Made by a program: the position numbers and the translations under genes. Below the pieces are notes generated by a model. It had not been told where the DNA came from. It made no database searches and saw nothing but the letters and a program-made list of their open reading frames with translations. 46,529 nt of DNA from a virus: positions 1 to 46,529 of the IMG/VR virus record IMGVR_UViG_3300009159_000104. The stretch is one strand, 5' to 3'. Positions 3,423 through 45,622 of this stretch are shown here, one piece after another; position 1 is the first letter of the stretch, and every line of letters begins with the position of its first letter.

Positions 3423-3428
3423 TAAATA
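3423..3428 (+). promoter_or_regulatory. Late-promoter-like TAAATA box before the sulfotransferase gene
   Basis: TAAATA followed by 6 nt and the ATG at 3435. T4-family late promoters have TATAAATA as their -10 element. The spacing matches the other TAAATA-start pairs here, though this one lies inside an apparent operon and may be incidental. Confidence 0.45.
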
Positions 3429-3434
3429 TAAAAA

Positions 3435-4259
3435 ATGATTGAAAAAATATTTTTTCAAAGTAGTATGCCACGTGCAGGTAGCACGTTATTGCAAAATATT
3501 TTAGCGCAAAATCCAGATATTTATGCTACACCTACATCTGGTATATTGGATATGTTTTTAACTTCAAGAAATATCTTCACTAATAGTCAAGAATTTAAAG
3601 CACAAGATGAGAAGGAAATGATAGAAGGTTTTAAAGGTTATTGTAAGGGTGCTTTAGAAGGTTTTTTTAATGGTGTAACTAATAAAAAATATGCTATAGA
3701 TAAGTGCAGAGGTTGGGGTGGTGTATATAAATTTGTAAATGAATTTTATCCAAATCCAAAGATGGTGGTAATGGTGAGAGATTTACGTGGTATTGTATGT
3801 AGTTTAGAAAAGAAATTTAGAGATAACCCAATGATTGATTGTGGTATGCAAGGTTGGGGAGATCTTAGAGGTACTACAATAGATAAGCGTGTGCAAATGT
3901 GGTTATACAATGTACCACCAGTACATTTACCATTAGATCTTCTATATGATAACATATTAAAGAGGTTAGCTAAGAATTTCTTATTTATCCGATATGAGGA
4001 TTTAACAGCTAACCCTGGTCCTGAGATTGAAAAAATCTACAAATATTTTGAGATTCCGAGTTATACACATAATTTTGATAATGTGGAACAACTTACCAAA
4101 GAGAATGACATATTTTACAGACCATTTGGTGATCATATGATTAGAGGTAAGATTATACCGATGAAAGATAATTATGTTGAAATCTTAGGTAAACATAACT
4201 GTAATTTCATCACTGAAAAATTTAATTGGTATTACAAAGCATTTAACTATCCTATATGA
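3435..4259 (+). CDS. Sulfotransferase (PAPS-dependent family)
   Basis: A 274-residue protein. The N-terminus carries the 5'-phosphosulfate-binding loop of sulfotransferases, MPRAGSTLLQ at residues 11-20, right after the first beta strand. The second PAPS-binding motif, VMVRDLRGIVCSLEKKF (about 113-128), has the expected Arg and Ser. FIRYEDLTANP (about 188) is the family's conserved YEDL segment. Length is typical. It would transfer sulfate from PAPS to a hydroxyl, most simply to a glycan made by the neighbouring glycosyltransferases. The stop overlaps the next start (ATGA), indicating coupled translation. Confidence 0.82.
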   Translation: MIEKIFFQSSMPRAGSTLLQNILAQNPDIYATPTSGILDMFLTSRNIFTNSQEFKAQDEKEMIEGFKGYCKGALEGFFNGVTNKKYAIDKCRGWGGVYKFVNEFYPNPKMVVMVRDLRGIVCSLEKKFRDNPMIDCGMQGWGDLRGTTIDKRVQMWLYNVPPVHLPLDLLYDNILKRLAKNFLFIRYEDLTANPGPEIEKIYKYFEIPSYTHNFDNVEQLTKENDIFYRPFGDHMIRGKIIPMKDNYVEILGKHNCNFITEKFNWYYKAFNYPI

Positions 4260-5059
4260 ACAATAAAATTAAAGTATTAATTGCAACCCCTAGTTATGAT
4301 GGTAAATTTGATGTTCGTTATTTGAACAGTCTTTTTGAAACACAAAAGATTGCTGATCAACATAACATTCAAATTCTACCATATTTCGTATGTTACGATT
4401 CATTGATTCAACGTGCACGTAATGATTACTTTCGAACTGCCTATCAGGCAGGGGTTGATGTATTGTTATTTATTGACAGTGATATTGGTTGGAATCCTGA
4501 AGATTTAATTAAGATTGTAAAGAATAAGTATGATGTAGTTGGTGGTACATATAGAAAGAAAACCAACACTGAAGAGCTCTATGCATTTAAAGCTTATGAT
4601 GTAGGAACTAATGATTTTAAACTAACACCTGATGCTGAAGGAATCCTTGAGGTTAACGGTTTAGGGTTTGGTTTCACTAAGTTCTCTAAATTTGCGGTAA
4701 AGACTCTTTGGGAAAATGAACAGAGCTTTTATGGTGGTAAAAATAACATTGAAAATTTAACTAAGAACATCTGTGAATGTATAGTTAATAAAGACAATGA
4801 CTTTGTATCTGAAGATATCATAGTTGGATTTAAGTGGAAAAAATTAGGATATAGTACATATCTTGACACTACTATTGATTTAATTCATGTTGGTAACACT
4901 GAATTCACTGGTGATATACGTAAGTGGTTGCAAGGGTGGAGGGTGAAGATTGATAACAATTTAGGTAAAAAATCTGACAATATTGATCAATTTATAAATA
5001 AACCTATTGCACAAGAAAATATAGTGGAAGATGAAGAAGATCTTTTTAAAATACTGTAA
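4256..5059 (+). CDS. Glycosyltransferase, GT-A fold (GT2/Anp1-like)
   Basis: A 267-residue protein starting KIKVLIATPSYDGKFD, a GT-A opening strand. The metal-binding DxD motif is in LLFIDSDIGWNPEDL (near residue 75), followed by YDVVGGTYRKK. NGLGFGFTKFSK (near 138) and FVSEDIIVGFKWKKLGY (near 183) fit the acceptor-side and catalytic-acid segments of these enzymes. Overlaps the sulfotransferase by 4 nt and abuts the next gene (TAATG), so it belongs to one translational unit. Substrate unknown. Confidence 0.7.
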   Translation: MNNKIKVLIATPSYDGKFDVRYLNSLFETQKIADQHNIQILPYFVCYDSLIQRARNDYFRTAYQAGVDVLLFIDSDIGWNPEDLIKIVKNKYDVVGGTYRKKTNTEELYAFKAYDVGTNDFKLTPDAEGILEVNGLGFGFTKFSKFAVKTLWENEQSFYGGKNNIENLTKNICECIVNKDNDFVSEDIIVGFKWKKLGYSTYLDTTIDLIHVGNTEFTGDIRKWLQGWRVKIDNNLGKKSDNIDQFINKPIAQENIVEDEEDLFKIL

Positions 5060-6726
5060 TGCTTAGTAAGGAATTAATATTAGTCGGTGGATTTTTAGCT
5101 GATGATATTGAAATCTTTAGTAAATTTTTATCTCAGAATAAAAGTTTACGTATTTTAGATTCTTCAGAAATACTAATTAATGTACCAGGTGCTAACCATA
5201 TACACCGGGTAGAGCAATTGAGATCTATTATTGATGATAAGCTATCAGTAATAAATCAAGAAATTGCTATTTCTTTTGATGAAACATGGAATTACCCACA
5301 AAATGTAAATGTAATGGTGGATATATGTTTTGATATACCACATTTAATTTACATATTACGACCGATTCATGAATGTATATCTATAATGTTTAAAAAGAGT
5401 AAATTCACTAATATCAGTGAATTTATGAAGAGTGTTGATTATGTATCTACACTTAAACAATATTATCAATCAATACACGTTATTAGTAATTTATATAAAG
5501 ATAATGTATTTTTAATTGATGCCCATGAATTTAAAGTAACTCCTTACGAGGTGTTGTTAAAGTTAACTACTAAAATTAACATACCTAAATCAAAATATAA
5601 GACAGCCATTTTATCTAATATTAAGAGTGAAGTTAATTTACTTGAAGATAATGTATTATCCTACAATCAGCAATTATATTGGAAACAAGGTAACCCTAAA
5701 CCGATCCTAGTAAATTCACATTATGAGGATATGTTAGATTTATCTTTAGCACATAATCTTAGAGGTGAATCTTATACAGCTGAACAAAATTTAAATTTCT
5801 TTCTTTCTAAATACCCCAATAATAATAGAGGGTTGTATAATAAAGGTATTTTTACCATTAAACACAACCTATTAGAAGGTCATAAGTATCTTTCAAAAGG
5901 TAGAAGTGAAAATGTATATGGTTCTAAACCACCTATTTTAGGTTTACCTGAGTGGAATGGTGAAACAAATTGCACTGTATTATTTTATCTTGAAGGTGGT
6001 TTAGGTGATGAAATTCACTTTGTTAGATTTGTAAAAAATATAAGAGCATATGGTTGTGAAGTAATCACTTGCTGTAATAAATCATTAAAAGAAGTGTTTA
6101 AATATGTAGATGGTATAGGTGAAATAATAGACAGAACTGAGCTTCAATATTACCATTTTGACTATTATGTACCAGCAATGTCATGTATCATCAATTTAAA
6201 ATTACAATACAGTGATATTACTGGTAATTCATATATAAACATACCATTTAAAGATAACCCCAATTTTAATAAACAAAGAATAGGGTTAAGGTGGAGAGGT
6301 AACCCACAATTTGAACATGAGCAGCATAGACTATTCCCTTCTGAATTACTTTTTAGTACAGTAAACGGTATTAATGCACAATTTATAAGTTTACAAAAAG
6401 ATGTAGGCTCTGAAGAAACACCAGCATGGGTAGATAAGGTGAATTTGGATACATGGATAGACACTGCAAGAGCTATCAATTCATGTAATTTAGTAATAAC
6501 TTCATGTACCAGTGTAGCACATTTAGCTGGAGCTATGGGTAAGAAGACATATATAGTTATACCATTATTACCATATTTTGTATGGGCTCCTGAGGGTGAG
6601 AAAAATATTTTTTATGATAATGTAAGATTATTCAGACAAACAGTATTTCAGAGTTGGAAAGAACCATTTACAAATCTCAAACAAGTACTAGAAAATGAAA
6701 TTGGATATAATTTTAAGAACACATGA
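5059..6726 (+). CDS. Two-part protein: sulfotransferase-like N-terminus, TPR and GT9-like glycosyltransferase C-terminus
   Basis: A 555-residue protein. Residues 1 to ~190 resemble a degenerate sulfotransferase (ELILVGGFLADDIEIFSKFL, then HLIYILRPIHECISIMFKK in the place of the 3'-phosphate site) but lack the canonical PRAGST loop. Around 220-290 is a TPR-like helical segment (LSLAHNLRGESYTAEQNLNF, NRGLYNKGIF). From ~300 the sequence matches TPR-linked GT9/heptosyltransferase-like enzymes: YLEGGLGDEIHFVRFVK with G313-E317, LRWRGNPQFEHE, then SCNLVITSCTSVAHLAGAMG and RLFRQ. The C-terminal half is probably active and the N-terminal half may only bind. The next gene starts inside it (31-nt overlap). 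Confidence 0.65.
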   Translation: MLSKELILVGGFLADDIEIFSKFLSQNKSLRILDSSEILINVPGANHIHRVEQLRSIIDDKLSVINQEIAISFDETWNYPQNVNVMVDICFDIPHLIYILRPIHECISIMFKKSKFTNISEFMKSVDYVSTLKQYYQSIHVISNLYKDNVFLIDAHEFKVTPYEVLLKLTTKINIPKSKYKTAILSNIKSEVNLLEDNVLSYNQQLYWKQGNPKPILVNSHYEDMLDLSLAHNLRGESYTAEQNLNFFLSKYPNNNRGLYNKGIFTIKHNLLEGHKYLSKGRSENVYGSKPPILGLPEWNGETNCTVLFYLEGGLGDEIHFVRFVKNIRAYGCEVITCCNKSLKEVFKYVDGIGEIIDRTELQYYHFDYYVPAMSCIINLKLQYSDITGNSYINIPFKDNPNFNKQRIGLRWRGNPQFEHEQHRLFPSELLFSTVNGINAQFISLQKDVGSEETPAWVDKVNLDTWIDTARAINSCNLVITSCTSVAHLAGAMGKKTYIVIPLLPYFVWAPEGEKNIFYDNVRLFRQTVFQSWKEPFTNLKQVLENEIGYNFKNT

Positions 6727-7472: not shown

Positions 7473-7478
7473 TAAATA
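7473..7478 (+). promoter_or_regulatory. Late promoter TAAATA for the portal gene
   Basis: TAAATA, then taatt (5 nt), then the ATG at 7484. Expected transcription start is at or next to the ATG. There is no Shine-Dalgarno sequence. Confidence 0.7.
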
Positions 7479-9288: not shown

Positions 9289-9294
9289 TAAATA
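9289..9294 (+). promoter_or_regulatory. Late promoter TAAATA before gene 9300
   Basis: TAAATA, atatt (5 nt), ATG at 9300. A second TAAATA overlaps upstream at 9282-9287. Confidence 0.65.
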
Positions 9295-10136: not shown

Positions 10137-10332
10137 GTATTATATTATTAAAACTATAGCTAATAAAACTGAAGTATATGGTGTAACAAGTGAAACTAAA
10201 CAACGTATTAAAGCGGTAATTATTAAATCTACCATAAAAAAATCAAATAAAGGTAAAACTATAAATTTAACTAAGAATGGTATTACTAATAACTTATCAC
10301 AATTTGACTTTACTTTAACTTTTGATCAATAA
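10129..10332 (+). CDS. Hypothetical small basic protein (67 aa)
   Basis: Not recognised. Lys-rich (KQRIKAVIIKSTIKKSNKGK in the middle). It overlaps the previous gene by 8 nt, consistent with translational coupling, and its stop TAA provides the first three bases of the next gene's TAAATA box. Function unknown. Confidence 0.6.
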   Translation: MFKYYIIKTIANKTEVYGVTSETKQRIKAVIIKSTIKKSNKGKTINLTKNGITNNLSQFDFTLTFDQ

Positions 10333-10335
10333 ATA
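10330..10335 (+). promoter_or_regulatory. Late promoter TAAATA for tail-fibre gene 10341, sharing the upstream stop codon
   Basis: TAAATA, ataat (5 nt), ATG at 10341. The first three bases are the stop codon of the gene ending at 10332. Confidence 0.65.
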
Positions 10336-10340
10336 ATAAT

Positions 10341-12200
10341 ATGGCAACTCAAGTAGATATTGCTAAAATTAAAGTTAGAAGAGGTTTAGATTCTGAAAGA
10401 CAACAAGTTATCCTAGATAACGGTGAACTTGGTTTCACCACCGACACCCAAAGGCTGTTTGTGGGTGATGGCACCACTATAGGTGGTGTAGCAGTATCTA
10501 GTAGATATATAGGATCTTTTGCTAATGTAAATGATGTTACTAATGCACAACAAGGTGATATAGTAATTATTAACAATGTTACATACCTTTTTTTAGGTGG
10601 TGATCAAAACAATATTGTTAATTATTTTAACATAGCTACTGTTGGTGTTGATAATATAACTATCCAATATAATGCTTTTAATCAATTAGAAATAAAATCC
10701 ATAAGCAGTTTTGTTGTAGGAAGTGTGGATGGTTCCCAGGGTATGAAGGTTACACCAGGTAACCAATATGCTACTAAAGTAGATGGTACTAGTGTAGCAT
10801 ATAACGGTTCAGGTGCTATAACAGTAGGTACTATAAATGGTAGTCAACATGGTAATCAATCTGGCGGTGCATTACATTCAGTTGCAACACCAGGTGTGGC
10901 TGGTTTTATGTCAGGTTCTGACAAAACTAAGCTTGACAATAGCCCGGTATGGACAACTACACCAATAACCAATTCACAGACACAAAACATTATAACAAGT
11001 ATCAATACTTATGGTTTGGATACAATTACAAATGTAAGTGCTCCTAACACGGTACAAGTTAACACCAGTAATACAGTAACCACTCCAGTATCAGGAAGTT
11101 ATTTATTAAATCAACAAAATGGTTATAATGAAACATTACAGCCTGGTGCAATTACATATAGTTCCATTACTTCTTCAAAAATTAGTAATGTCGGTCAATT
11201 ACCATGCTGGCAATTTGATACAACAGGTATGGATTTAACTGATAGAGGGTTTATTTTACTTGGTGGTGATGGTAGGCAATATGGTTTCTATAATAATGTA
11301 ACAAATTCATTTTATCAAACCCCAAATGTCTTATGGGTTGATGTTGGTGCAAGTGATCAACCATCCTTAATGGCTGCAATTAGTAGTGTTGAATCAAATG
11401 GCATATACAGTTATAGACTTTTTGATGTATACACTGATACAGCTAATTTATTTTGGGTAAAGGGGTTATATCCAAATTATTCCACATTTTACAATAATAT
11501 CAATGGTGGTACAAGTGTATCAATAACACCGATTAATAATGGTAAACAATCAGCTGCATTAACAAGAAAATTAATTTGTGGTACAGCTGTTTCAACAAGC
11601 TTTCCGGTATCAGGATTTAGGACTACAAATGCTATTCAAGTAGATTCCTCAGTAACAGGTGCAGCAATTGATATTGCTAATAGTAATAAATACATTACAG
11701 TATATGATAGTAATTATATAAAACATGTATTTTGGTTTAATAATAGTGTTACACCTCAATCACCTCCAGCTGCAAATATTAACGTTTACTATCCTGGTAC
11801 TATCACACAAATATATAAAATAGATTACACTACAGCTAGTTCAAGTAACACATTATTTGATTTACTTAGTACAGCCTTAGATACTGCTGGGTTTAATGTT
11901 TTATCTAAAACTTCAGGTAATATACAATTTCAAACTGGTAGTGCAGGTTATTCATTAGATATATTTACTAATTACGATGCTTCTGTAATTAATTCAGTTA
12001 CACTTGGAGGTGATTATTTAACTACACAAACTTTTGGTAATTGTGTGCCTAATGTATCAACTATGAGTGAAATATTAATGGATAACATAACTTCCATAGG
12101 TTCTCCTGGTATAGTAAATGTAAAGTTACCTGGTGTTCCTGCAATATCATATACAGTAGATTCAGGTACTAGAAACAGTATAGCATTAATTAAATACTAA
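10341..12200 (+). CDS. Tail fibre protein with N-terminal RRG...VGDG attachment domain
   Basis: A 619-residue protein. Residues ~10-55 (KVRRGLDSERQQVIL, DNGELGFTTDTQRLFVGDGT) form the short N-terminal domain shared by many phage fibre and Mtd-like tropism proteins, which joins the fibre to the baseplate. The rest is Ser/Thr/Asn/Gly-rich beta structure with few charges, as in fibre shafts; ATPGVAGFMSGSDKTKLD (near 180) is a common fibre motif. It has a late box 5 nt before the ATG. The next gene has the same N-terminal domain, so the two are paralogues. Confidence 0.8.
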   Translation: MATQVDIAKIKVRRGLDSERQQVILDNGELGFTTDTQRLFVGDGTTIGGVAVSSRYIGSFANVNDVTNAQQGDIVIINNVTYLFLGGDQNNIVNYFNIATVGVDNITIQYNAFNQLEIKSISSFVVGSVDGSQGMKVTPGNQYATKVDGTSVAYNGSGAITVGTINGSQHGNQSGGALHSVATPGVAGFMSGSDKTKLDNSPVWTTTPITNSQTQNIITSINTYGLDTITNVSAPNTVQVNTSNTVTTPVSGSYLLNQQNGYNETLQPGAITYSSITSSKISNVGQLPCWQFDTTGMDLTDRGFILLGGDGRQYGFYNNVTNSFYQTPNVLWVDVGASDQPSLMAAISSVESNGIYSYRLFDVYTDTANLFWVKGLYPNYSTFYNNINGGTSVSITPINNGKQSAALTRKLICGTAVSTSFPVSGFRTTNAIQVDSSVTGAAIDIANSNKYITVYDSNYIKHVFWFNNSVTPQSPPAANINVYYPGTITQIYKIDYTTASSSNTLFDLLSTALDTAGFNVLSKTSGNIQFQTGSAGYSLDIFTNYDASVINSVTLGGDYLTTQTFGNCVPNVSTMSEILMDNITSIGSPGIVNVKLPGVPAISYTVDSGTRNSIALIKY

Positions 12201-13279: not shown

Positions 13280-13516
13280 ATGCCAGCAACAATTAATAAT
13301 TATTTTAAATCTAACGACGATTTAAAAGCTTTAACTGATAATTGTGTTTATATTTCAACACAAGCTGCTGATGTAGCAATTACTACAAAAGGTAATATAT
13401 TTATAAAATTTAAAGGTAAACTGAAAAATCGTAACAAATCTATACAGAGATTAATTATGTATTTAATTGATGAGGGTTGGAAAATTAAGAAGATGTGCAA
13501 CGTTTTTATGTATTGA
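13280..13516 (+). CDS. Hypothetical protein (78 aa)
   Basis: Not recognised. Follows the fibre gene by 7 nt. Basic second half (KFKGKLKNRNKSIQRLIMYL). No cysteine motif or signal peptide. Its stop is at the -35 region of the promoter for gene 13548. Possibly a fibre-assembly factor by position only. Confidence 0.6.
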   Translation: MPATINNYFKSNDDLKALTDNCVYISTQAADVAITTKGNIFIKFKGKLKNRNKSIQRLIMYLIDEGWKIKKMCNVFMY

Positions 13517-13541
13517 CTTGAATTGGGAAATTTCATAACAT
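13513..13541 (+). promoter_or_regulatory. Early-type promoter for gene 13548
   Basis: TTGACT (13513-13518), 17 nt, TAACAT (13536-13541), then 6 nt to the ATG. The spacer contains TTGGGAAA, seen in several other early-type promoters here. Confidence 0.65.
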
Positions 13542-13547
13542 CTGTGC

Positions 13548-14070: not shown

Positions 14071-14076
14071 TATTTA
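14071..14076 (-). promoter_or_regulatory. Late promoter TAAATA for small gene 13892-14065
   Basis: On the minus strand: TAAATA, atatt (5 nt), ATG at 14065. It lies back to back with the early promoter of gene 14118. Confidence 0.65.
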
Positions 14077-14083: not shown

Positions 14084-14112
14084 TTGAATAGTAATTTAGC
14101 CTGTATTATAAT
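14084..14112 (+). promoter_or_regulatory. Early-type promoter for the PD-(D/E)XK nuclease gene
   Basis: TTGAAT (14084-14089), 17 nt, TATAAT (14107-14112), 5 nt, ATG at 14118. The calculated start of transcription falls on the start codon. Confidence 0.7.
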
Positions 14113-14117
14113 ATGTT

Positions 14118-15549: not shown

Positions 15550-15555
15550 TAAATA
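15550..15555 (+). promoter_or_regulatory. Late promoter TAAATA for gene 15561
   Basis: TAAATA, ttatt (5 nt), ATG at 15561. Confidence 0.68.
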
Positions 15556-15560: not shown

Positions 15561-17393
15561 ATGGCTGCAGTTGACATAATTGATCAAGCTAGGTTATATG
15601 AATCAATCAATAACTTAGCTAAAAGCATTGAAAAAAGTAATGAGAAATTAATTAAATCTCTTAGTAAACTCACTAGCGGTACAGTAAAAAGTGATGCCAA
15701 AGCACCGGTAGGTCCAGGTGCGATAGTAGATGAAGAAACTGAACGACGTAAAAGGGGTAAGGTTTTTGAAGATGTAATCAACACTAATATTGTTGAATTT
15801 GGTAGTAAAGCAATAGATCAATTAAGTAAAGTTCTTAAAGGATTAGTTCCTAAAGAAGAAAAGAAACCATCAGAAGCAAAAAAACCTGAAGAGTCCTCTT
15901 TTTTAAAGAAATTACTTGCTTTAGCCCCTCTTTTACTACCATTAATAGCTACGTTATTAAAATTCTTAGCAGGCTTTAGTAGTGATAAGTTATTTGAGTT
16001 CTTAGCTAATATATTCCCTAAAATCTTTAATATTGGTAAACTAACCGAAGGGTTAATGAAAATAGTTAAAGGTATAGGTAGTTTATTCATGAAAGGTATC
16101 AAGCTATTAAAGAGTACCAAATTAGGTAAATTCTTTACTGAATTTGGTGATGATATAGCTAAGCTTTTCAAAGAAAACAAAATATTTAAAACAATATTCG
16201 GTGAAGCTGGTATTTTTAGTAAAGTATTCGGTAAAGCAGGCTTCTTTGCAAAAATGTTCGGTGAAGCTAGTGTATTTGCTAAATTGTTTGATGTAGCTGG
16301 GGATGCTGCTAAGATATTAACAGGTGGTTTCTTCGGTAAAATTTTTAAAGGCCTAGGTAAAACAGTATTGAAAAGATTACCAATATTGGGTTCTTTATTT
16401 AGCTTCTATGATGCATATAAAGAACTTTCAAGTGGTGATTACTTAAGTGGTTTCACTAGTTTAATTAGCGGTATTGCTAATTTATTTCCTGGTGTTGGTT
16501 CTGTTGTATCTATTGGTTTAGATTTCTTAAATTATCTCTTTAAGACTGAATCAATGCAAGACTTCAAAGCTAATCTAAATCAAGGTTTATTCACTCAAGC
16601 ATTTAGTAGTTTAGGTGATACATTAGTAAAGAAGATGCCATTCTTAAAGTGGTTTTATGATTTATCTGAAAACATAGGTGGTGCATTAGCTGGAGACACA
16701 GAATCAATAATTAAGTTATTTGATCAATTTGGTTTAGGTGCTTTAGGTAAGTGGATGTTTGGTAATACGATGATGGATAAAGCTGAAGCATTTGTTGACG
16801 CGTCATTATTTGAAAAATTATTAATTACCGGTATTGTGCAACCAGCAACGCAACTTGTTGAATGGTTTACCAATTTATTTGGTGATTTAATTAAATCTGC
16901 AAAAGATAAAATAAAGAGTATACTTCCTGATTTTCTTGTTAGTAAAGATGAATATGATCCAGCAGCTGAAACTAAGAAATTAGAAGAAGGTTTAAAAGCT
17001 AAGAAAGCTCAAAAACTCAAAGAACAAGAAATGATGCTTAAACAACAAAAAGACCAAAGTTTTGAGCAAGTTAATGACTTTACTTCTATACCTGAAAACA
17101 TTATTAAGCGCGGTGATGATATTAAAAAGTTCTCTAAAGATGATGCAATTATGGGTTTCAAACCAGGAGGTGATATAGATAAGATGTTTAAGAATGTAGT
17201 TAAATTCCTAGGGGATACTCTCAATAGTAATAAAGAACTTGTTGATATAGGTAAAAAACAATTAGATTTGATGCATTTATTAACTGAAAAGAATAATTCA
17301 AATTTAGTTAATAATAGTACAAGTAATAACACATATGTATTGTCTTCAAGATCAAGTGTTGCATCATTTAGAGAAGAAGCATTGCGTTATTAA
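15561..17393 (+). CDS. Tail tape-measure/baseplate hub candidate (gp29 position)
   Basis: A 610-residue protein; gp29 of T4 has 590. Residues ~10-130 are charged and helical. From ~120 to 420 it is rich in Leu, Phe, Gly and Lys, with amphipathic and hydrophobic stretches (LLALAPLLLPLIATLLKFLA) and short tandem units around 205-250 (GEAGIFSKVFGKAGFFAKMF, then GEASVFAKLF). That is typical of tape measures and their membrane-active segments. The C-terminal ~130 residues are Lys/Gln/Asn-rich and coiled-coil-like. It lies between gp26-like and gp48/54-like genes, as in T4. Homology to gp29 is not shown by sequence, only by character and place. Confidence 0.55.
   Translation: MAAVDIIDQARLYESINNLAKSIEKSNEKLIKSLSKLTSGTVKSDAKAPVGPGAIVDEETERRKRGKVFEDVINTNIVEFGSKAIDQLSKVLKGLVPKEEKKPSEAKKPEESSFLKKLLALAPLLLPLIATLLKFLAGFSSDKLFEFLANIFPKIFNIGKLTEGLMKIVKGIGSLFMKGIKLLKSTKLGKFFTEFGDDIAKLFKENKIFKTIFGEAGIFSKVFGKAGFFAKMFGEASVFAKLFDVAGDAAKILTGGFFGKIFKGLGKTVLKRLPILGSLFSFYDAYKELSSGDYLSGFTSLISGIANLFPGVGSVVSIGLDFLNYLFKTESMQDFKANLNQGLFTQAFSSLGDTLVKKMPFLKWFYDLSENIGGALAGDTESIIKLFDQFGLGALGKWMFGNTMMDKAEAFVDASLFEKLLITGIVQPATQLVEWFTNLFGDLIKSAKDKIKSILPDFLVSKDEYDPAAETKKLEEGLKAKKAQKLKEQEMMLKQQKDQSFEQVNDFTSIPENIIKRGDDIKKFSKDDAIMGFKPGGDIDKMFKNVVKFLGDTLNSNKELVDIGKKQLDLMHLLTEKNNSNLVNNSTSNNTYVLSSRSSVASFREEALRY
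15587..15620 (+). repeat. 11-bp inverted repeat (one G-U) near the start of gene 15561
   Basis: Arms AGCTAGGTTAT (15587-15597) and ATAACTTAGCT (15610-15620), loop 12 nt, beginning 26 nt after the start codon. Confidence 0.65.
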
Positions 17394-17396
17394 ATA
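17391..17396 (+). promoter_or_regulatory. Late promoter TAAATA for gene 17403, sharing the upstream stop codon
   Basis: TAAATA, ttataa (6 nt), ATG at 17403. The TAA is also the stop codon of the gene ending at 17393. Confidence 0.6.
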
Positions 17397-17402
17397 TTAT
17401 AA

Positions 17403-18698
17403 ATGAGTTATCCGTTTAATTTTGCATTTTTATATGGAGCTGAAAATGACGGTACGGTGCCACCTTTAGCCGTACCGTCTACATTTAGTAAAAGTGCTTC
17501 TCCAAATGTAGAATTTAGTCAACAATGGCTCAATACAGCAACTAATTTTGTTGAAAATAATATTTCAAATCTCGGTTTTGTTCAAAATCTAAGTAATAAC
17601 TATCCAACATCTACTCTTAATGATATAGTTGCATACTATAAGAATGAACCAAATAAAAAGGTAGATCTTATAGATATTGTAAATGACTTCACATGGACTA
17701 TATCTCCTAAAACAAGTAGAGGTGATGTACCTTATATTTGGTTAAATGAAAGATACATAACTCTCAATGCATTACTTAATCAAGCAGTGTACGGTATCAC
17801 TGCAATATTAGATAACAAAGCAGCCCAAGCTGTATTACGCACAGGTGTTCAACAATTTGAAAGTTCAGTAGGTTCTTTAAGTAGTTTAGGATTATATAAC
17901 TCAGTAAAAAATGTATTTAAAGATATAGGTCAAGATGCAGCTATAGCTGGTAATAAACTTTTAGATAAATTTGGTATAGTGGATACATTAGGTCCAGTAT
18001 TAGAATCACCTTTATCACCATATAAAGGTCTTTATTACACTGTTGAATCAGGTTTTAACTATAAGATACCATTATTTACAAGCGAATTTTGGAATACATC
18101 GAACACTTTTACTGATAGTTCAGGTGAAGGTAATTCAGATTTTATAGCTGGTTTAGTAGAGAGTGTTAAGGCATTTGGTATGGAAGCTTCCAAATTAATT
18201 AATACTGGGAGCAATCAATATGGTACATATGTTGAATTTCCTAAACAATATGCAATGTCATCACCTGCTTCCTATAATGTAACATTTGATTTAGTAAATA
18301 CTAAACCTGCTACATATATAGATGTGGTATCTAACTTTAAATTATTATTTTTACTATTCTATCAAAACTTACCAGTAAGAAGAAGTAAGCAATTGGTAGA
18401 TCCCCCGGTAATATATAACATATACGTACCTGGACAAAAAAGAATGCCATATGCTTATTTGTCATCTATAGCTATAAAGAATTTAGGTGCAAGTAGATTA
18501 ATGGAGATAGATTTTACCGGGTTAAATATAATAAATCCCCCTAGTAGTGCAACAAGTACATTCCCTGAAAGATGGACAACAGTAGTACCTGATGCTTATA
18601 GAGTAACTTTAACATTCCAAGATTTGATACCAGAAACAAAGAATACTGTTTATTCTTCATTCTTATCAAATTCAATAATCCAAACAAGTATAACCTAA
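17403..18698 (+). CDS. Baseplate tail-tube cap/junction protein, probable gp48/gp54-like
   Basis: A 431-residue protein. The C-terminal half has a tube-protein feel: FPKQYAMSSPASYNVTFDLV (near 280), YNIYVPGQKRMPYAYLSSIA (near 338), then VVPDAYRVTLTFQDLIPETK near 395-415, which resembles the terminal segment of T4 gp48 and gp54. Those proteins seat the tail tube on the baseplate. T4 versions are 364 and 320 residues, so this one is longer, with a helical N-terminal half. Position next to tape-measure and gp53-like genes agrees. A GC-rich hairpin lies 45 nt into the gene. Confidence 0.55.
   Translation: MSYPFNFAFLYGAENDGTVPPLAVPSTFSKSASPNVEFSQQWLNTATNFVENNISNLGFVQNLSNNYPTSTLNDIVAYYKNEPNKKVDLIDIVNDFTWTISPKTSRGDVPYIWLNERYITLNALLNQAVYGITAILDNKAAQAVLRTGVQQFESSVGSLSSLGLYNSVKNVFKDIGQDAAIAGNKLLDKFGIVDTLGPVLESPLSPYKGLYYTVESGFNYKIPLFTSEFWNTSNTFTDSSGEGNSDFIAGLVESVKAFGMEASKLINTGSNQYGTYVEFPKQYAMSSPASYNVTFDLVNTKPATYIDVVSNFKLLFLLFYQNLPVRRSKQLVDPPVIYNIYVPGQKRMPYAYLSSIAIKNLGASRLMEIDFTGLNIINPPSSATSTFPERWTTVVPDAYRVTLTFQDLIPETKNTVYSSFLSNSIIQTSIT
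17448..17479 (+). repeat. Perfect 10-bp GC-rich inverted repeat in gene 17403
   Basis: Arms GACGGTACGG (17448-17457) and CCGTACCGTC (17470-17479), loop 12 nt. It stands out from the AT-rich surroundings. Confidence 0.85.
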
Positions 18699-19071: not shown

Positions 19072-20651
19072 TGACTAACGATATTTACAAATCAATAGAC
19101 CCGTTCATACCACCATTATTACAAAATGTAGTAACATTTAATAAGAGTGAATACATTTATTGTGTGGTGTTGCTTAATGGTGAAGGTCCATTTTTAAATC
19201 TAACTACTGAATCAGTAATGGGTTTAAATATAATGGATAATGTTACTAAATTCACTCACACCGGTGAATTAGTATTATTAAATGATAATGATGTAATTGA
19301 GAGAGCATATAATAATCCTGGTGAATCCTATACCACTAGACAAGCTGATCTTAATACTCCCAATATAGAATTCTTTTTTAGAGGTGATGGTAGAGATTTA
19401 GTGTTAATATTAATTACACCACGTGATTCTGATAATTTAAATCTACAAGATCAGGTATCATTAATTAACCCATTTACATTAAAGTTCATATTCAGTATCA
19501 CAAATATTAGAGATCAAGTAACTAGTTCCGGTAAAAAGTTAAAAGTTCTCACATTACAAGATTTAGATGAAAGAATTTTAGAAGAAGTAAATTTAAACTT
19601 TTCAACAGCAAAATTTATTGAGGGTAAAGATCTAACTAATTTAGACAACTCACAAAGAGGTATACTTAGCGGTGAAGTTATTAAGAATTTACTTACAAGT
19701 GCATTAACACAATCAGGTAAATTGGTAGACACTACTGAAATAAGCTTTGCTACCAATGATGCGTGGGATATAGGTGGTTCAACATTATACTACAGTTCAC
19801 CAGCTACCTATAATGCCTATAATGATTTAATATATGTTTTACAGAGACATGTAAGCGGTCAAACATTTGATTCATGTATTTTAAGAAAAGAACGTAATAA
19901 TGTTTGGTCGTTAATGAGTTTAGGTAATTATTTTAAATACGGTTATAACAAAAGTACTGATAGTGCTGGTGCATTGCATATAGAGAAGTTCTTAGTGCAA
20001 TCATCAGGTTCTACTGTTAATGTAGTGTTGAAGAAAGACAGAACTCCTACAGCATTAGTTAATAACACGGGTTATCTTAATAGTAGTTATATAACAAATT
20101 ATCAATTATACTATTCTGATGCTCAAAATGTGCAAGATGATATAATAACTCATGCAGTGCATTCATATCAATTGAACAATAAACAATTCAATGTTGATAT
20201 GACAAGAAACAACATAGAGAGTGCTAGAAGAACGTTTGAAGATTTCTATGTTAAGCCAATGAAAGGCGAAAATGGTAGACCAGCACCATTCTTTTACACT
20301 AATGCAATAAGAAATCAAAACAAAAACATTAAAAATGTATTTAGCTTAGTTGATTACAGTTTAGATCAAAGATTAAATTGGGGTAGAAATCTAATTTTAT
20401 TAAATGCAGTATATAAGGGGTTAACTATAGAATTTACAATTGATGGTATATCTAATAGACAATCAGGTAGATTTATATCAATAGATCGTGAAGATGCATT
20501 ACCCACATCTAGTTTTGATGATAGATTATTAGGTATTTGGTTTATAGTAAGTGTGGAGCATATTTTTACAAGTACCACGTATCAAACAAAACTTATTGCT
20601 GTTAAAACATACTCATACTCACCAGTTGGTGGTAATCCAGATATTCAATAA
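19071..20651 (+). CDS. Baseplate hub candidate (gp27-like by position)
   Basis: A 526-residue protein. The first ~190 residues are beta-rich: GLNIMDNVTKFTHTGELVLL is typical of hub or tube-like domains that pack beta barrels, and LKFIFSITNIRDQV, KKLKVLTLQDLDERILEE resemble hub proteins of contractile tails. The middle is Asn/Ser/Tyr-rich. The C-terminus (GLTIEFTIDGISNRQSGRFI, then LLGIWFIVSVEHIFTSTTYQ) ends with beta strands common in hub proteins. No lysozyme or peptidase motif is seen. The gp27 assignment rests mainly on neighbours. Confidence 0.5.
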   Translation: MTNDIYKSIDPFIPPLLQNVVTFNKSEYIYCVVLLNGEGPFLNLTTESVMGLNIMDNVTKFTHTGELVLLNDNDVIERAYNNPGESYTTRQADLNTPNIEFFFRGDGRDLVLILITPRDSDNLNLQDQVSLINPFTLKFIFSITNIRDQVTSSGKKLKVLTLQDLDERILEEVNLNFSTAKFIEGKDLTNLDNSQRGILSGEVIKNLLTSALTQSGKLVDTTEISFATNDAWDIGGSTLYYSSPATYNAYNDLIYVLQRHVSGQTFDSCILRKERNNVWSLMSLGNYFKYGYNKSTDSAGALHIEKFLVQSSGSTVNVVLKKDRTPTALVNNTGYLNSSYITNYQLYYSDAQNVQDDIITHAVHSYQLNNKQFNVDMTRNNIESARRTFEDFYVKPMKGENGRPAPFFYTNAIRNQNKNIKNVFSLVDYSLDQRLNWGRNLILLNAVYKGLTIEFTIDGISNRQSGRFISIDREDALPTSSFDDRLLGIWFIVSVEHIFTSTTYQTKLIAVKTYSYSPVGGNPDIQ

Positions 20652-20654
20652 ATA
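20649..20654 (+). promoter_or_regulatory. Late promoter TAAATA for gene 20660, sharing the upstream stop codon
   Basis: TAAATA, taatt (5 nt), ATG at 20660. TAA at 20649-20651 is the stop of the hub gene. Confidence 0.65.
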
Positions 20655-20659
20655 TAATT

Positions 20660-21550
20660 ATGCCTAGTAGTGAGTATTTTAAAACAATAGATCCTTATCT
20701 ATATACTGTTAATCTGTATTATAATAAAGACTACTATAGAGCATTCTCCAATTATTATAAAGTTTTAATATTCGGTATTGATACTTTACAATACTTTATT
20801 GATTACAATAAGAGTAAAGTAATAGATAACCCAATAGATGCACGTGTAAAGTTATATAAAGAATTAGATTTAACTGGTATGGATACATATCAGCAATTGC
20901 AATTTAAAATATATTGGTATGAACAATTTTTTAGTGATTTAAACATTATTAAAGAAACATTTTTTCAACAAGTAGAGAATCCTATATATTTTAAAGAAAT
21001 AAGTGATAGTATTGGTTTACTTAGAAATTACTTCACTGTACCTGATGATTCTACATTATTAATTAAAGATACTAATTTTTCAGTGCAAACTAATGAAAGT
21101 ATACCATTACCGGTTAATGTTGGTTCAGGGGTATACAATAAATTAAGAACTAACACTATATTATTATCTACAGAAATGAACTTTCTTAATACTGTTTTAT
21201 ATAGAAATAATATGTCTAATTTACAAGAAAATTTTACATATCCTAATGAATCACACGGTGAAAATTTAGTAACTGATTACTTTCATATAGATAAAATTAA
21301 AAATATTTCACAAGAAGTGTTAGAAAAGAGTTTGCGTCAATTTTACGGTCAATTATATGATTTAATCTTATTTTATGAAAACTTTGACTATGGTGATTAT
21401 GAACTTAATTTAGCAAAAATGGAAAAAGGTGCTATTGAAGTAAGTATAGAAAGTACAACTAAAAAGATAACTTACTTACAGCAACAAGCTTTAGTTTATG
21501 TTAATACAGTTAATCTATATACTACATTAACTGCTCAATCTATTACTTAA
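20660..21550 (+). CDS. Hypothetical virion-module protein (296 aa)
   Basis: Not recognised. Mostly helical and rich in Tyr, Asn and acidic residues (TVNLYYNKDYYRAFSNYYKV, KLYKELDLTGMDTYQQLQFK). No membrane segment, signal or known motif. Its late box and place after baseplate genes suggest a baseplate or tail protein. It converges with the gp16-like gene, overlapping by 8 nt. Confidence 0.7.
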   Translation: MPSSEYFKTIDPYLYTVNLYYNKDYYRAFSNYYKVLIFGIDTLQYFIDYNKSKVIDNPIDARVKLYKELDLTGMDTYQQLQFKIYWYEQFFSDLNIIKETFFQQVENPIYFKEISDSIGLLRNYFTVPDDSTLLIKDTNFSVQTNESIPLPVNVGSGVYNKLRTNTILLSTEMNFLNTVLYRNNMSNLQENFTYPNESHGENLVTDYFHIDKIKNISQEVLEKSLRQFYGQLYDLILFYENFDYGDYELNLAKMEKGAIEVSIESTTKKITYLQQQALVYVNTVNLYTTLTAQSIT

Positions 21551-21988: not shown

Positions 21989-21994
21989 TATTTA
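21989..21994 (-). promoter_or_regulatory. Late promoter TAAATA for the gp16-like gene
   Basis: On the minus strand: TAAATA, gttat (5 nt), ATG at 21983. Confidence 0.65.
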
Positions 21995-22014: not shown

Positions 22015-22043
22015 TTGATTACATATAGTCAATACACTAATAT
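22015..22043 (+). promoter_or_regulatory. Early-type promoter for dUTPase
   Basis: TTGATT (22015-22020), 17 nt, TAATAT (22038-22043), 6 nt, ATG at 22050. Confidence 0.65.
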
Positions 22044-22049
22044 TTACAT

Positions 22050-23426: not shown

Positions 23427-23432
23427 TATTTA
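23427..23432 (-). promoter_or_regulatory. Late promoter TAAATA for the 31-residue basic gene
   Basis: On the minus strand: TAAATA, gttatgt (7 nt), ATG at 23419. Confidence 0.65.
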
Positions 23433-23478: not shown

Positions 23479-23507
23479 TTGATGTTATTTGGTAACCAAT
23501 ATATTAT
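23479..23507 (+). promoter_or_regulatory. Early-type promoter for the clamp-loader gene
   Basis: TTGATG (23479-23484), 17 nt containing TTTGGTAAC, TATTAT (23502-23507), 6 nt, ATG at 23514. Confidence 0.68.
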
Positions 23508-23513
23508 TTAAGT

Positions 23514-25043: not shown

Positions 25044-25048
25044 ATAAT

Positions 25049-25054
25049 TATTTA
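25049..25054 (-). promoter_or_regulatory. Late promoter TAAATA for gene 24423-25043
   Basis: On the minus strand: TAAATA, attat (5 nt), GTG at 25043. It forms a divergent pair with the box at 25072. Confidence 0.68.
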
Positions 25055-25071
25055 TTATCTCAGTCTAAAAT

Positions 25072-25077
25072 TAAATA
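25072..25077 (+). promoter_or_regulatory. Late promoter TAAATA for the gp25-gp6 operon
   Basis: TAAATA, atagt (5 nt), ATG at 25083. It heads the operon running to about 29714. Confidence 0.68.
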
Positions 25078-25082
25078 ATAGT

Positions 25083-25568
25083 ATGGGTAATATAAATTTA
25101 TCCCAATTATCAAATCAACCACAATCGACAACTGGGTATAAATTTTCTGATTTAAACCTTGATATTGCTTCTGAGACTACGAGAACCGATTATATTAATT
25201 CACAATATAGTAATAACGATTTAAGATCGCAATATGATCTTGGTGCTATTAAAAATAGCATACGTAATATCTTTATAACCTTTCCAGGTCAAAAGTTATT
25301 AAACCCTACGTTTGGTTTAAATTTAATGCAATTTCTATTTTTACCAGTATCAGACGTTACCGCAAACCTTATCGGTCAACGTATCCTTAATGGGTTAATA
25401 ATAAATGAGTCTCGTATTACTGTAAAAAAGATATATGTAGATGGTGTATCGGATGAAAATCGCTATACCATTACCTTACAGATTACTGTGCCATTTATAA
25501 ATACTTATACAATTTTTACGTTAAAAGGTACATTAAATAGTACAGGTTTTAACTTCTATAACTTTTAA
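25083..25568 (+). CDS. 25: Baseplate wedge protein, T4 gp25-like
   Basis: A 161-residue protein. The gp25/GpW family core is clear: YDLGAIKNSIRNIFITFPGQ, then LLNPTFGLNLMQFLFLPVSD and NRYTITLQITVPF. The LNPTFG stretch takes the place of the family's EPRFG motif, so the Glu-Pro-Arg triad is altered. gp25 sits at the inner baseplate and helps start sheath assembly. First gene of an operon with gp6-like (2-nt gap). Confidence 0.85.
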   Translation: MGNINLSQLSNQPQSTTGYKFSDLNLDIASETTRTDYINSQYSNNDLRSQYDLGAIKNSIRNIFITFPGQKLLNPTFGLNLMQFLFLPVSDVTANLIGQRILNGLIINESRITVKKIYVDGVSDENRYTITLQITVPFINTYTIFTLKGTLNSTGFNFYNF

Positions 25569-29725: not shown

Positions 29726-29731
29726 TAAATA
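29726..29731 (+). promoter_or_regulatory. Late promoter TAAATA for gene 29738
   Basis: TAAATA, ttatta (6 nt), ATG at 29738. Confidence 0.6.
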
Positions 29732-36094: not shown

Positions 36095-36100
36095 TACTAT

Positions 36101-36130
36101 ATAATAAGGGGTTCCCAATGAAAAACTCAA
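36101..36130 (-). promoter_or_regulatory. Early-type promoter for gene 35540-36094
   Basis: On the minus strand: TTGAGT (36130-36125), 18 nt containing ATTGGGAAC, TATTAT (36106-36101), 6 nt, GTG at 36094. Confidence 0.65.
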
Positions 36131-38866: not shown

Positions 38867-38872
38867 TATTTA
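38867..38872 (-). promoter_or_regulatory. Late promoter TAAATA for the Dps-like gene
   Basis: On the minus strand TAAATAAATA holds two overlapping boxes; the nearer one is followed by 6 nt and the ATG at 38860. Confidence 0.6.
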
Positions 38873-39172: not shown

Positions 39173-39259
39173 GCCTAGGTGACCCGAATGGCTAAGGGAC
39201 CAGTTTTGTAAACTGGCGGCGAAAGCCAACTGCAGGTTCGATTCCTGTCCTAGGCTCCA
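39173..39259 (+). tRNA. tRNA-Thr (anticodon UGU) with a class-II-like long variable arm
   Basis: An 87-nt cloverleaf. Acceptor GCCTAGG (39173-39179) pairs with CCTAGGC, discriminator T, encoded CCA. Anticodon stem CCAGT/ACTGG encloses TTTGTAA, giving UGU, which reads ACA (Thr). The D stem has 3 bp (CCC/GGG) and the variable arm is long (CGGCGAAAGCCAACT, with a GGC-GAAA-GCC hairpin), both class II features normal for Ser, Leu or Tyr but not Thr. G1-C72 and C2-G71 are as in bacterial tRNA-Thr. Confidence 0.88.
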
Positions 39260-41712: not shown

Positions 41713-42165
41713 ATGAACACACTAGAAAAAACAAACTTGGATTTTAATGAAATGCTTAACACATGTTGGGAAACAGCATTGGGTGTTACTAAGCGAGCTA
41801 AACTCTATCAAGCTTCCTCACCTAAAGATATGAGCTTTATTCATTGTATTTTTAGAGGCAATGATGAATATGCCACAGTAATGGTGAATTGTACAAGCGG
41901 TGGTAAAACCCAAATTGTTACTGTAGATAGCCCTTATTTAGATGATTGTGTTATACATCCCCCTATTGAGATGACTCAAACAGAATCAGAGCAATATTTA
42001 ACTGCTGCTGGTTATTCTAATTGGACTTGTGTATGTTTAAGAGAGCCTTTATATTCAGTTAAGTATAATCCATTGTATATCTATACTGTACCTTCTACAC
42101 TACAAAAAGTAGGTGGTTATATTGGTGTAGATTCAACAGATGGAGCTATCATTATTTTGGAATAA
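41713..42165 (+). CDS. Hypothetical protein (150 aa)
   Basis: Not recognised. Several Cys residues are scattered (NTCWETALGV, FIHCIFRGND, MVNCTSGGKT, WTCVCLREPL) without a finger spacing. Beta strands alternate through the middle. It lies between RNA and DNA ligases with its own promoter, so an early nucleic-acid role is plausible by context only. Confidence 0.62.
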   Translation: MNTLEKTNLDFNEMLNTCWETALGVTKRAKLYQASSPKDMSFIHCIFRGNDEYATVMVNCTSGGKTQIVTVDSPYLDDCVIHPPIEMTQTESEQYLTAAGYSNWTCVCLREPLYSVKYNPLYIYTVPSTLQKVGGYIGVDSTDGAIIILE

Positions 42166-42170
42166 AACCG

Positions 42171-42199
42171 TTGATTCAATTTGGAACTTTTCATATAAT
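42171..42199 (+). promoter_or_regulatory. Early-type promoter for the DNA ligase gene
   Basis: TTGATT (42171-42176), 17 nt containing ATTTGGAAC, TATAAT (42194-42199), 6 nt, ATG at 42206. One of the best matches in the window. Confidence 0.75.
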
Positions 42200-42205
42200 T
42201 TTTAC

Positions 42206-44429: not shown

Positions 44430-44435
44430 TATTTA
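44430..44435 (-). promoter_or_regulatory. Late promoter TAAATA for the serine protease
   Basis: On the minus strand: TAAATA, tctttgt (7 nt), ATG at 44422. Confidence 0.6.
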
Positions 44436-44488: not shown

Positions 44489-44507
44489 ATACGTGTCAAT
44501 TAAATAT

Positions 44508-44584
44508 GCACTCGTAGCTCAGTTGGATAGAGCATCTGCCTTCTAAGCAGAGAGTCACAGGTTCAATTCCTGTCGAGTGCACCA
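44508..44584 (+). tRNA. tRNA-Arg (anticodon UCU)
   Basis: A 77-nt cloverleaf: acceptor GCACTCG/CGAGTGC, discriminator A, encoded CCA; anticodon stem TCTGC/GCAGA around CTTCTAA gives UCU, which reads AGA. The T arm is ACAGG/CCTGT with TTCAATT. AGA is a frequent Arg codon in this AT-rich genome, so the tRNA would help translation. Confidence 0.95.
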
Positions 44585-44596
44585 TTTTTTAAAAAC

Positions 44597-44839: not shown

Positions 44840-44844
44840 TTTGA

Positions 44845-44985: not shown

Positions 44986-44991
44986 TTTTAA

Positions 44992-45066
44992 GGGAGCCTA
45001 GCTCAGCGGTAGAGCAGCGCCTTTACACGGCGAAGGTCACAGGTTCAAATCCTGTGGTTCCCACCA
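44992..45066 (+). tRNA. tRNA-Val (anticodon UAC)
   Basis: A 75-nt cloverleaf: acceptor GGGAGCC/GGTTCCC (with a G-T pair), discriminator A, encoded CCA; D stem GCTC/GAGC; anticodon arm GCGCC-TTTACAC-GGCGA gives UAC (the outermost pair is G-A); T arm CACAG/CTGTG with GTTCAAATC. Reads GTA (Val), a common codon here. Confidence 0.93.
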
Positions 45067-45070
45067 TTTT

Positions 45071-45301: not shown

Positions 45302-45348
45302 CATTATACAGATTGTTTAAGCAATTATTAAGCATAGATTTAAATGCT

Positions 45349-45354
45349 TAAATA
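45349..45354 (+). promoter_or_regulatory. Late promoter TAAATA for the EF-hand gene
   Basis: TAAATA, attatgc (7 nt), ATG at 45362. It overlaps an 8-bp inverted repeat (TTAAGCAT ... ATGCTTAA). Confidence 0.58.
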
Positions 45355-45361
45355 ATTATGC

Positions 45362-45622
45362 ATGAAGACAATAATCACACTATCAGTGTTAGTCGCAGCA
45401 TTTACCCTAAATGCTCAACAAGGGCCAAAAGGTCCACCTCCCGGTGAAGGTCATCCATTCCGTCCAAAGTTGACTGAAGAACAAAAGAAAGCAAGAGTAG
45501 AAATAATTGCTAAGTATGACACAAACAAGGATGGCAATTTAAATAAAGAAGAGAGAAAAGCGGTAAGTAAAGAAGATAGAAAAAAGTTAGGACCTCCAGG
45601 TAGACCACCGAAGAGAGATTAA
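45362..45622 (+). CDS. Secreted EF-hand calcium-binding protein (86 aa)
   Basis: Residues 1-19 (MKTIITLSVLVAAFTLNAQ) form a standard Sec signal peptide with cleavage after an LNA-type site. A Pro/Gly-rich segment follows, then one canonical EF-hand loop, DTNKDGNLNKEE (about 57-68), with acidic or Asn ligands at positions 1, 3, 5, 7, 9 and Glu at 12, then a second charged helix. The style matches small EF-hand proteins common in Verrucomicrobia and Planctomycetes, so it may be host-derived cargo. It has a late box and a dedicated terminator, a self-contained unit. Role unknown; acting in the envelope or after lysis is possible. Confidence 0.78.
   Translation: MKTIITLSVLVAAFTLNAQQGPKGPPPGEGHPFRPKLTEEQKKARVEIIAKYDTNKDGNLNKEERKAVSKEDRKKLGPPGRPPKRD

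Follow-up and report, generated by a model that had tools for sequence, protein, structure and literature searches.

Two promoter classes set close to the start codon suggest leaderless or near-leaderless transcription units in an uncultured family of T4-type phages

The window analysed here is the whole stretch of 46,529 nt formed by positions 1 to 46,529 of the viral record IMGVR_UViG_3300009159_000104, in which we counted 57 ORFs, taking the first ATG, GTG or TTG as the start. It represents part of the genome of a T4-type phage that belongs to a large, uncultured family. Its core-gene matches are limited to gp20, gp25, gp6 and gp44, and neither gp55 nor gp45 was seen in this fragment. Two relatives, G001 and G002, carry the T4-type core genes gp20, gp17, gp23, gp43 and gp55, the last encoding the late sigma factor; the clamp gp45 is encoded in G001 only. 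The 106 portal proteins of the clade form one group separate from seven outgroups (branch support 0.866, midpoint root). L135, which comes from an IMG record numbered in another form than the metagenome records, had no near match among phage records.

A late box, TAAATA, lies directly upstream of many start codons. On the forward strand, boxes stand 5 nt before the ATGs at 7484 (box 7473..7478; portal gp20), 9300 (9289..9294), 10341 (10330..10335), 12202 (12191..12196), 15561 (15550..15555), 20660 (20649..20654) and 25083 (25072..25077; gp25-like baseplate protein), 6 nt before those at 3435 (3423..3428), 17403 (17391..17396) and 29738 (29726..29731), and 7 nt before that at 45362 (45349..45354). 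On the reverse strand, the spacer is 5 nt at ATG 14065 (14071..14076), ATG 21983 (21989..21994) and GTG 25043 (25049..25054), 6 nt at ATG 38860 (38867..38872, overlapped by another box at 10 nt), and 7 nt at ATG 23419 (23427..23432) and ATG 44422 (44430..44435). The frames starting at 14065 and 23419 are short, with 57 and 31 codons only. At 10341, 17403 and 20660 the TAA of the box is the stop codon of the preceding gene, and the box of 12202 lies within the 3' end of its upstream neighbour. The 12202 site, which was read by eye, was absent from a preliminary description of this DNA, whose 16 TAAATA starts were all confirmed, with spacers of 5-7 nt.

Sigma70-type sites form a second class. 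On the forward strand, TTGACT-N17-TAACAT (13513..13547), TTGATT-N17-TAATAT (22015..22049), TTGATG-N17-TATTAT (23479..23513) and TTGATT-N17-TATAAT (42171..42205, by eye) lie 6 nt from the ATGs at 13548, 22050 (dUTPase), 23514 (clamp loader) and 42206 (ATP-dependent DNA ligase), respectively, and TTGAAT-N17-TATAAT (14084..14117) lies 5 nt from ATG 14118 (exonuclease family phrog_298). On the reverse strand, TTGAGT-N18-TATTAT (36095..36130, read by eye) lies 6 nt from GTG 36094. All six TATAAT-type sites reported before were recovered by eye at 5-6 nt from the start, with a TTGxxx element 17 nt further up, or 18 nt at 36094. The start at 42206 is later than the longest-ORF start at 42140, and 36094 is likewise downstream of its longest-ORF start.

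The spacing is far from what base composition yields. A late box at 5-7 nt precedes 15 of the 57 window ORFs, compared with a mean of 0.40 and a maximum of 5 in 2000 dinucleotide shuffles; shuffling single nucleotides within the last 40 nt gives a similar picture (mean 0.50, maximum 5, n=20000). The sigma70 class was counted at five of the 57 ORFs (2455, a weak site, 13548, 14118, 22050 and 23514) versus a dinucleotide-shuffle mean of 0.26 and a maximum of 3. The Shine-Dalgarno 4-mers GGAG, GAGG and AGGA occur at 1/57 window ORFs, in line with the near-absence claimed earlier.

The same arrangement was found across the family. Among 973 distinct upstream regions from 91 related contigs, TAAATA occurs at 5, 6 and 7 nt in 118, 54 and 25 cases (next 22), and TATAAT peaks at 6 nt with 36 (next 11). 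Scored TTG-N16-18-TAnnnT promoters number 36 at 6 nt and at most 8 at any other spacing (554 ORFs). Thus, the two promoter classes peak one base apart, the late box at 5 nt and the sigma70-type at 6 nt. When weighted over 594 families, TAAATA reaches 53.8 at 5 nt and 25.0 at 6 nt (median 1.1), so the peak does not come from copies of one gene. The runner-up among the 15 A4T2 hexamers, ATAAAT at 6 nt (39.2), is the TAAATA box shifted by one. In 10 records taken together, TAAATA-N5-ATG occurs 143 times and its backward reading 25 times, and 98 of the 100 clade contigs having at least 5 ORFs contain a box of this kind. The heptamer ATAAATA is present at 95/118, 45/54 and 22/25 of the sites with spacers of 5, 6 and 7 nt. 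There is also a shoulder, with family-weighted values of 13.6 at 9 nt and 8.4 at 10 nt versus 10.8 at 7 nt; a second box at 5-7 nt accompanies only 10 of the 49 shoulder upstreams. Leaderless-type spacing is a family trait, and the comparison with shuffled sequence that the preliminary description had proposed, here extended across genomes, comes out strongly in its favour.

Since Shine-Dalgarno motifs are found at only 2-10% of ORFs in the clade, another ribosome signal would be welcome, and such a site other than Shine-Dalgarno has been described in Bacteroidetes. The A/T-rich box could then be a translation signal, with transcripts starting further upstream. A ribosome site, however, would be expected at any place in an operon, whereas the late box precedes 5 of the 214 ORFs lying at most 5 nt behind a gene on the same strand and 19 of the 38 at gaps of 6-15 nt. 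At 5-7 nt it also precedes 33 of the 120 starts whose neighbour lies on the opposite strand, and 19 of the 94 that follow gaps of more than 40 nt. The boxes thus lie at the heads of transcription units and rarely directly behind another gene, which argues for promoters rather than ribosome sites. Moreover, one hexamer is favoured rather than A/T richness as such, and the sigma70-type class, with its own -35 element, sits one base further away. Inspection of G001 and G002 by eye places the box on late genes, and uvsX, gp43 or gp41 have sigma70-type sites. We therefore consider a translation signal very unlikely. The near-absence of Shine-Dalgarno motifs at the box-bearing ORFs themselves (0/93 for the late box, 1/46 for sigma70) is weak evidence for leaderless mRNA because the box occupies the space in question; above the box, the counts are 0/94 versus 19/460.

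If the boxes are promoters, the true start codon might nevertheless lie downstream, so that the RNA would be leadered and the proximal ATG unused. The choice of start is indeed uncertain in places, as the departures from the longest-ORF start at 36094 and 42206 illustrate. However, frames of at least 60 codons open from 69 of the 82 ATGs located 5 nt behind TAAATA, versus 78 of 383 at 11-40 nt. In gp15, a GTG is kept at exactly 5 nt while the spacers change, and the conserved protein N-terminus follows right behind it (13 of 56 family members). The gp18 N-terminus (MARTIQSPGVEI in G001, MTLLSPGIEL in T4) agrees with those of T4 and HTVC008M to within a few residues. These observations leave the downstream-start explanation with hardly any weight, and the proximal codon is by far the better candidate. 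GTG starts behind the late box belong to 16 of 73 families at spacer 5, one of 38 at spacer 6 and one of 19 at spacer 7; the sigma70 class also uses GTG (8 of 32 at spacers 4-5).

In 47 of 215 cases the TAA of the box is the upstream stop codon, and in 31 the stop codon lies immediately 5' of the box. This fused stop-promoter-start element is a new observation beyond the preliminary description, and represents an extreme of compaction. It lends some credit to the idea that genome compaction produced the spacing as a side effect, with no selection for leaderless RNA as such. Yet the box also occurs where space is less limited, at the starts with opposite-strand neighbours and behind the gaps of more than 40 nt counted above, and compaction does not explain two classes set one base apart. 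A pure by-product is thus unlikely, if less so than the two preceding explanations.

The one-base offset is instead what is predicted if RNA starts on the start codon. The sigma70 -10 hexamer ends at -7, so a 6-nt spacer puts +1 on the start codon. The T4 late box, in the numbering of PMC2988020, ends at -6, and a 5-nt spacer therefore does likewise. The earlier proposal that transcription begins at the start codon is supported by the 5 and 6 nt peaks, although the RNA 5' end is deduced from a register borrowed from T4 and E. coli.

Taken together, these data argue that the transcription units are mostly leaderless or near-leaderless and are headed by two promoter classes, a reading to which we assign a probability of roughly 0.87. 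Late (structural) genes would be transcribed from late promoters of the gp55 type, with TAAATA as their core, and early and replication genes from host sigma70 promoters. Both classes are placed such that RNA polymerase would begin transcribing at the start codon's first base or 1-2 nt upstream of it. The resulting mRNA would have no Shine-Dalgarno leader, and initiation would rest on direct recognition by ribosomes of the AUG or GUG at the 5' terminus. Most genes that follow immediately on another lack a promoter, and their translation is probably coupled to that of the preceding gene. The upstream stop, late promoter and next start are often folded into about 14 nt (TAA-ATA-N5-ATG).

The preliminary wording "throughout this phage" is too wide, however. 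No promoter was recognised for 206 of the 214 genes directly behind another, nor for 78 of the 120 starts whose neighbour lies on the opposite strand and 62 of the 94 that follow gaps of more than 40 nt, and a minority of boxes lie 9-10 nt away. The box of gp17 lies at 9 nt in G002 and is missing in G001; among the relatives, that of gp20 lies at 5-7 nt in G002 and G003 only, and at 12 nt in G001. In the relatives' late-gene upstreams, no such box was found for gp4, gp14 and gp23. Their major capsid gene, gp23, is preceded by a leader that usually includes a Shine-Dalgarno motif, and has a conserved, covarying hairpin. The capsid gene is thus an exception to the leaderless layout, which is a new observation; its product would be made from a leadered message instead. 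A wider scheme, in which leaderless initiation is the default at unit heads across the whole family, early and late, and a Shine-Dalgarno leader is kept for the major capsid gene, is possible but tentative. If it were true, the phages would run a two-mode translation programme, in which leaderless messages remain functional even with canonical initiation impaired or taken over during infection and the capsid protein has one structured leader under separate control. Gene by gene, the choice between leaderless and leadered translation becomes testable inside one virus. In addition, the box fixes start codons and so aids gene calling, as at 42206, 36094 and the GTG of gp15.

The promoter consensus of Bacteroidetes differs from the TTGxxx/TAnnnT form of our sigma70 class, and Bacteroidetes therefore seem unlikely as hosts. 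Scans of a collection of species genomes with the portal alignment and with a relative's NrdA found no relative. Phage ribosomal protein bS21, considered as a possible general cause, was matched in 3 of 11 records, mostly fragments, at E 0.001 or better, with two over the curated cut-off.

PMC5312081 describes transcripts of phages as "often leaderless", and kasugamycin has been described as sparing leaderless translation. In the open-access journal literature searched, we found no T4-type family whose two promoter classes share a start point. In 11 other T4-type stretches of 30-50 kb each, rather than whole genomes, there are 5 boxes at 5-7 nt in 686 ORFs. Boxes at 5-45 nt, mostly at 15-45 nt, number 16 in T4, 12 in S-PM2, 10 in AG-345-P14, 8 in BUCT-ZZ01, 7 in HTVC008M, 6 in P-SSM2 and 5 in C48C1; phiM9, Atu_ph04, Cr30 and RM378, with only 2-3 each, are little informative. 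No T4 structural genes were noticed in the Cr30 stretch.

The family resembles the T4 late system (gp55/gp33/gp45) in having ATAAATA at most of its sites, which belong to structural genes, and in encoding gp55 homologues (G001 and G002) and gp45 (G001). In the T4 stretch, however, boxes are 9-46 nt away from the start and a Shine-Dalgarno motif accompanies 25 of 51 ORFs, compared with mostly 5-7 nt and 2-10% in the family. In a tabulation of positions -20 to the start at 60 spacer-5 sites, the first base of the octamer is A at a frequency of 0.70 and T, the T4 consensus, at 0.08; in T4 it is A at nine of the 50 late sites listed in PMC2988020. Being mostly A, the family octamer is like the form of S-PM2, whose late promoter is described as NATAAATA (PMC2984593), rather than the strict T4 consensus, and the family late boxes have the NATAAATA core at a fixed register. 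The Kyanoviridae (S-PM2, P-SSM2 and HTVC008M) also share core genes with this family; the window portal is 32-34% identical to the listed cyanophage portals, and HTVC008M NrdA has 53% identity to that of a window relative. In their stretches, nevertheless, 3 of 177 ORFs have TAAATA at 5-7 nt, and two of these three belong to HTVC008M. The leaderless genes of Deinococcus-Thermus, as described in PMC12340547, have a -10 hexamer that lies a few bases upstream of the ORF, acts as the promoter and is subject to a spacing requirement. Their mRNA has no leader or a very short one, as that of our family would, and in both the -10 is a few bases from the start. In Deinococcus-Thermus this is a cellular trait that uses the housekeeping -10, whereas here it belongs to a virus family and involves two promoter classes, one of them of the phage late type.

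All 16 TAAATA boxes (the core of gp55-type late promoters) that the preliminary description had listed ahead of start codons are present in the window, with spacers of 5, 6 or 7 nt, and its six TATAAT-type sites were recovered by eye, each 5-6 nt from the start with a TTGxxx hexamer 17-18 nt upstream. An additional late site lies at 12202. Among 57 window ORFs of at least 60 codons each, 15 carry a late box at 5-7 nt and five a scored sigma70-type promoter (that at 2455 being weak), and the proposed comparison of box-to-start distances with shuffled sequence placed these counts far above 2000 dinucleotide shuffles (mean 0.40, maximum 5, and mean 0.26, maximum 3, respectively). The suggested near absence of Shine-Dalgarno sequences was also borne out, as GGAG/GAGG/AGGA-type 4-mers precede 1/57 window ORFs. 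At 25043-25083, opposite-strand late promoters share a common gap, with GTG and ATG starts 40 nt apart. Late boxes also lie 5 and 7 nt ahead of reverse-strand frames of 57 and 31 codons, at 14065 and 23419, which are possible small leaderless genes.

The window is a 46,529-base virus record from IMG/VR. Family searches with it identified a T4-type portal, gp25- and gp6-like baseplate proteins, a clamp loader, dUTPase, dCMP deaminase, DNA ligase and RNA ligase, in addition to tRNA-Thr(TGT) at 39173-39259, tRNA-Arg(TCT) at 44508-44584 and tRNA-Val(TAC) at 44992-45066. The portal shares 32-34% identity with the nearest named portals among the matches listed. Portal searches supplied 18 related contigs, then the best 80 of at least 533, then more distant ones; three long relatives were examined piecewise. 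The long relatives G001 and G002 have gp55, gp43, gp41, uvsX, gp46, gp47, gp17, gp18, gp19, gp21 and gp23 in common, and gp45 was found in G001 besides. Ribosomal protein bS21 is phage-encoded in L118 (G001), L119 (G008) and L120 (G002), two matches lying above the Pfam cut-off and one under it.

The 106 clade members group together in the portal tree, apart from seven outgroups (support 0.866, midpoint root). Close promoter-to-start spacing is a trait of this family. Of the 100 clade contigs with at least five ORFs, 98 have one or more boxes at 5-7 nt, the exceptions being L087 and L091; in a separate count, five of 103 loci or pieces had none. A set of 973 distinct upstreams, drawn from 91 contigs, has TAAATA at 5, 6 and 7 nt in 118, 54 and 25 cases, the next spacing being 9 nt (22); for TATAAT the peak is at 6 nt, with 36 upstreams, and the next most frequent spacing has 11 upstreams. 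Scored TTG-N16-18-TAnnnT promoters, covering G001-G003 and the window, were found at 6 nt in 36 of the 554 ORFs examined and in at most 8 at any other spacing. Family-weighted TAAATA scores (594 protein families) are 53.8, 25.0 and 10.8 at 5, 6 and 7 nt, then 6.4, 13.6 and 8.4 at 8, 9 and 10 nt; the median is 1.1. The rise at 9-10 nt is a genuine shoulder: a second box at 5-7 nt is present in just 10/49 such upstreams. In all, 111 protein families have at least one member with a box at 5-7 nt, and TAAATA-N5-ATG occurs 143 times in ten long records vs 25 for the backwards pattern.

The sigma70 -10 hexamer ends at -7, so a spacer of 6 nt would put +1 on the start codon. The T4 late box has its last base at -6, according to a passage of PMC2988020, so here a spacer of 5 nt would do the same; the two spacing maxima, 6 and 5 nt, are offset by that same one base. 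The base preceding the start is A in 0.51 of cases at spacer 6 and 0.15 at spacer 5, as expected if RNA begins one base upstream at the former. GTG starts behind late boxes occur in 16/73 families at spacer 5, 1/38 at 6 and 1/19 at 7; in the sigma70 class they occur in 15/68 at spacer 6 and 0/34 at 7-8, yet in 8/32 at 4-5. ATGs following TAAATA open at least 60 codons in 69/82 cases at 5 nt, 27/33 at 6 nt, 11/19 at 7 nt and 78/383 at 11-40 nt. All 56 members of the gp15 family match T4 gp15; GTG stands at exactly 5 nt in 13 of them, with varying spacer sequences, and box-N5-GTG/ATG falls inside the first 13 codons in 24. The gp18 N-terminus reads MARTIQSPGVEI in G001, MTLLSPGIEL in T4 and MAFLVSPGVL in HTVC008M.

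By its place in transcription units, the late box is predicted to be a promoter rather than a ribosome site. It precedes 5/214 ORFs separated by at most 5 nt from a same-strand gene, 19/38 at gaps of 6-15 nt, 17/66 at 16-40 nt, 19/94 beyond 40 nt and 33/120 ORFs with an opposite-strand neighbour. Read by eye, the relatives' gene listing has a box at 5-7 nt wherever gp13, gp15, gp18, gp19, gp21 or gp25 appears and no late box at gp4, gp14 or gp23; in G001, the boxes of gp15 and gp3 precede starts within the called ORFs. For gp20 the box lies at 5-7 nt in G002 and G003 and at 12 nt in G001; for gp17 it lies at 9 nt in G002 and is absent in G001. A TAnnnT site is found 6 nt ahead of the start of uvsX (G001 and G002 alike), gp41 (G001) and gp43 (G002; 9 nt in G001). 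A nearby same-strand stop accompanies 215 of the 327 distinct box ORFs; it is the TAA of TAAATA in 47 and sits directly ahead of the box in 31, every other offset reaching at most 11. Such fused stop-promoter-start elements of 14-15 nt occupy window positions 10330-10343 (start 10341), 17391-17405 (17403) and 20649-20662 (20660).

Shine-Dalgarno motifs precede 0/93 late-box ORFs, 1/46 sigma70 ORFs, 7/34 with a distant box only and 48/359 with none of these. Their absence at box ORFs is a weak argument for leaderless design, because the box occupies most of the same space; above the box position they occur in 0/94 box ORFs vs 19/460 others. Motif frequency in the clade is 2-10% of ORFs. Eleven other T4-type stretches (686 ORFs) have motifs at 220 ORFs, and five boxes at 5-7 nt with 60 at 15-45 nt, four of the eleven having too few boxes to inform.

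The major capsid gene gp23 is an exception. Of its 20 distinct upstreams, which include those of 10776 in L101 and of 11592 in L107, and two of which have doubtful starts, 14 carry a Shine-Dalgarno motif within 25 nt and none has a box at 5-7 nt. The conserved leader consists of a covarying hairpin (UGA-GGn..nCC-UGA), then GGTCGACA (11/15 aligned), then usually the motif. In the 15 upstreams aligned, picked because the hairpin is visible in them, 94.7% of cells are paired and the covariation score is 0.503 (at most 0.192 when slid); 0/500 shuffles reached this score, and 22/500 reached the count of pairs changed on both sides. No Rfam family matched the leader in L101 or L107, the two loci searched. 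These leaders make it probable that Shine-Dalgarno sequences are read by the host ribosome, in which case the leaderless design would not stem from lacking them.

Taken together, the position, spacing, conservation and unit-head bias of the boxes are established at the sequence level. We propose that RNA polymerase would start on the start codon or 1-2 nt upstream of it, that ribosomes would recognise the 5'-terminal AUG or GUG, and that genes directly behind another may be translated by coupling. This model leaves unexplained the ORFs without a recognised promoter (393/532 classed) and the boxes at 9-10 nt, with predicted leaders of 4-5 nt; in Lactococcus cremoris, according to a passage of PMC10986495, no leader had a length between 4 and 14 nt. 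The literature searched yielded no report of leaderless design in T4-type phages; phage transcripts in general are termed 'often leaderless' in a passage of one paper (PMC5312081). The -10-adjacent leaderless genes of Deinococcus-Thermus, as described in parts of PMC12340547, would be alike in working, whereas the main class in this clade is a phage late promoter. Compared with T4 late promoters, those of the clade are alike in core and gene set and unlike in distance from the gene.
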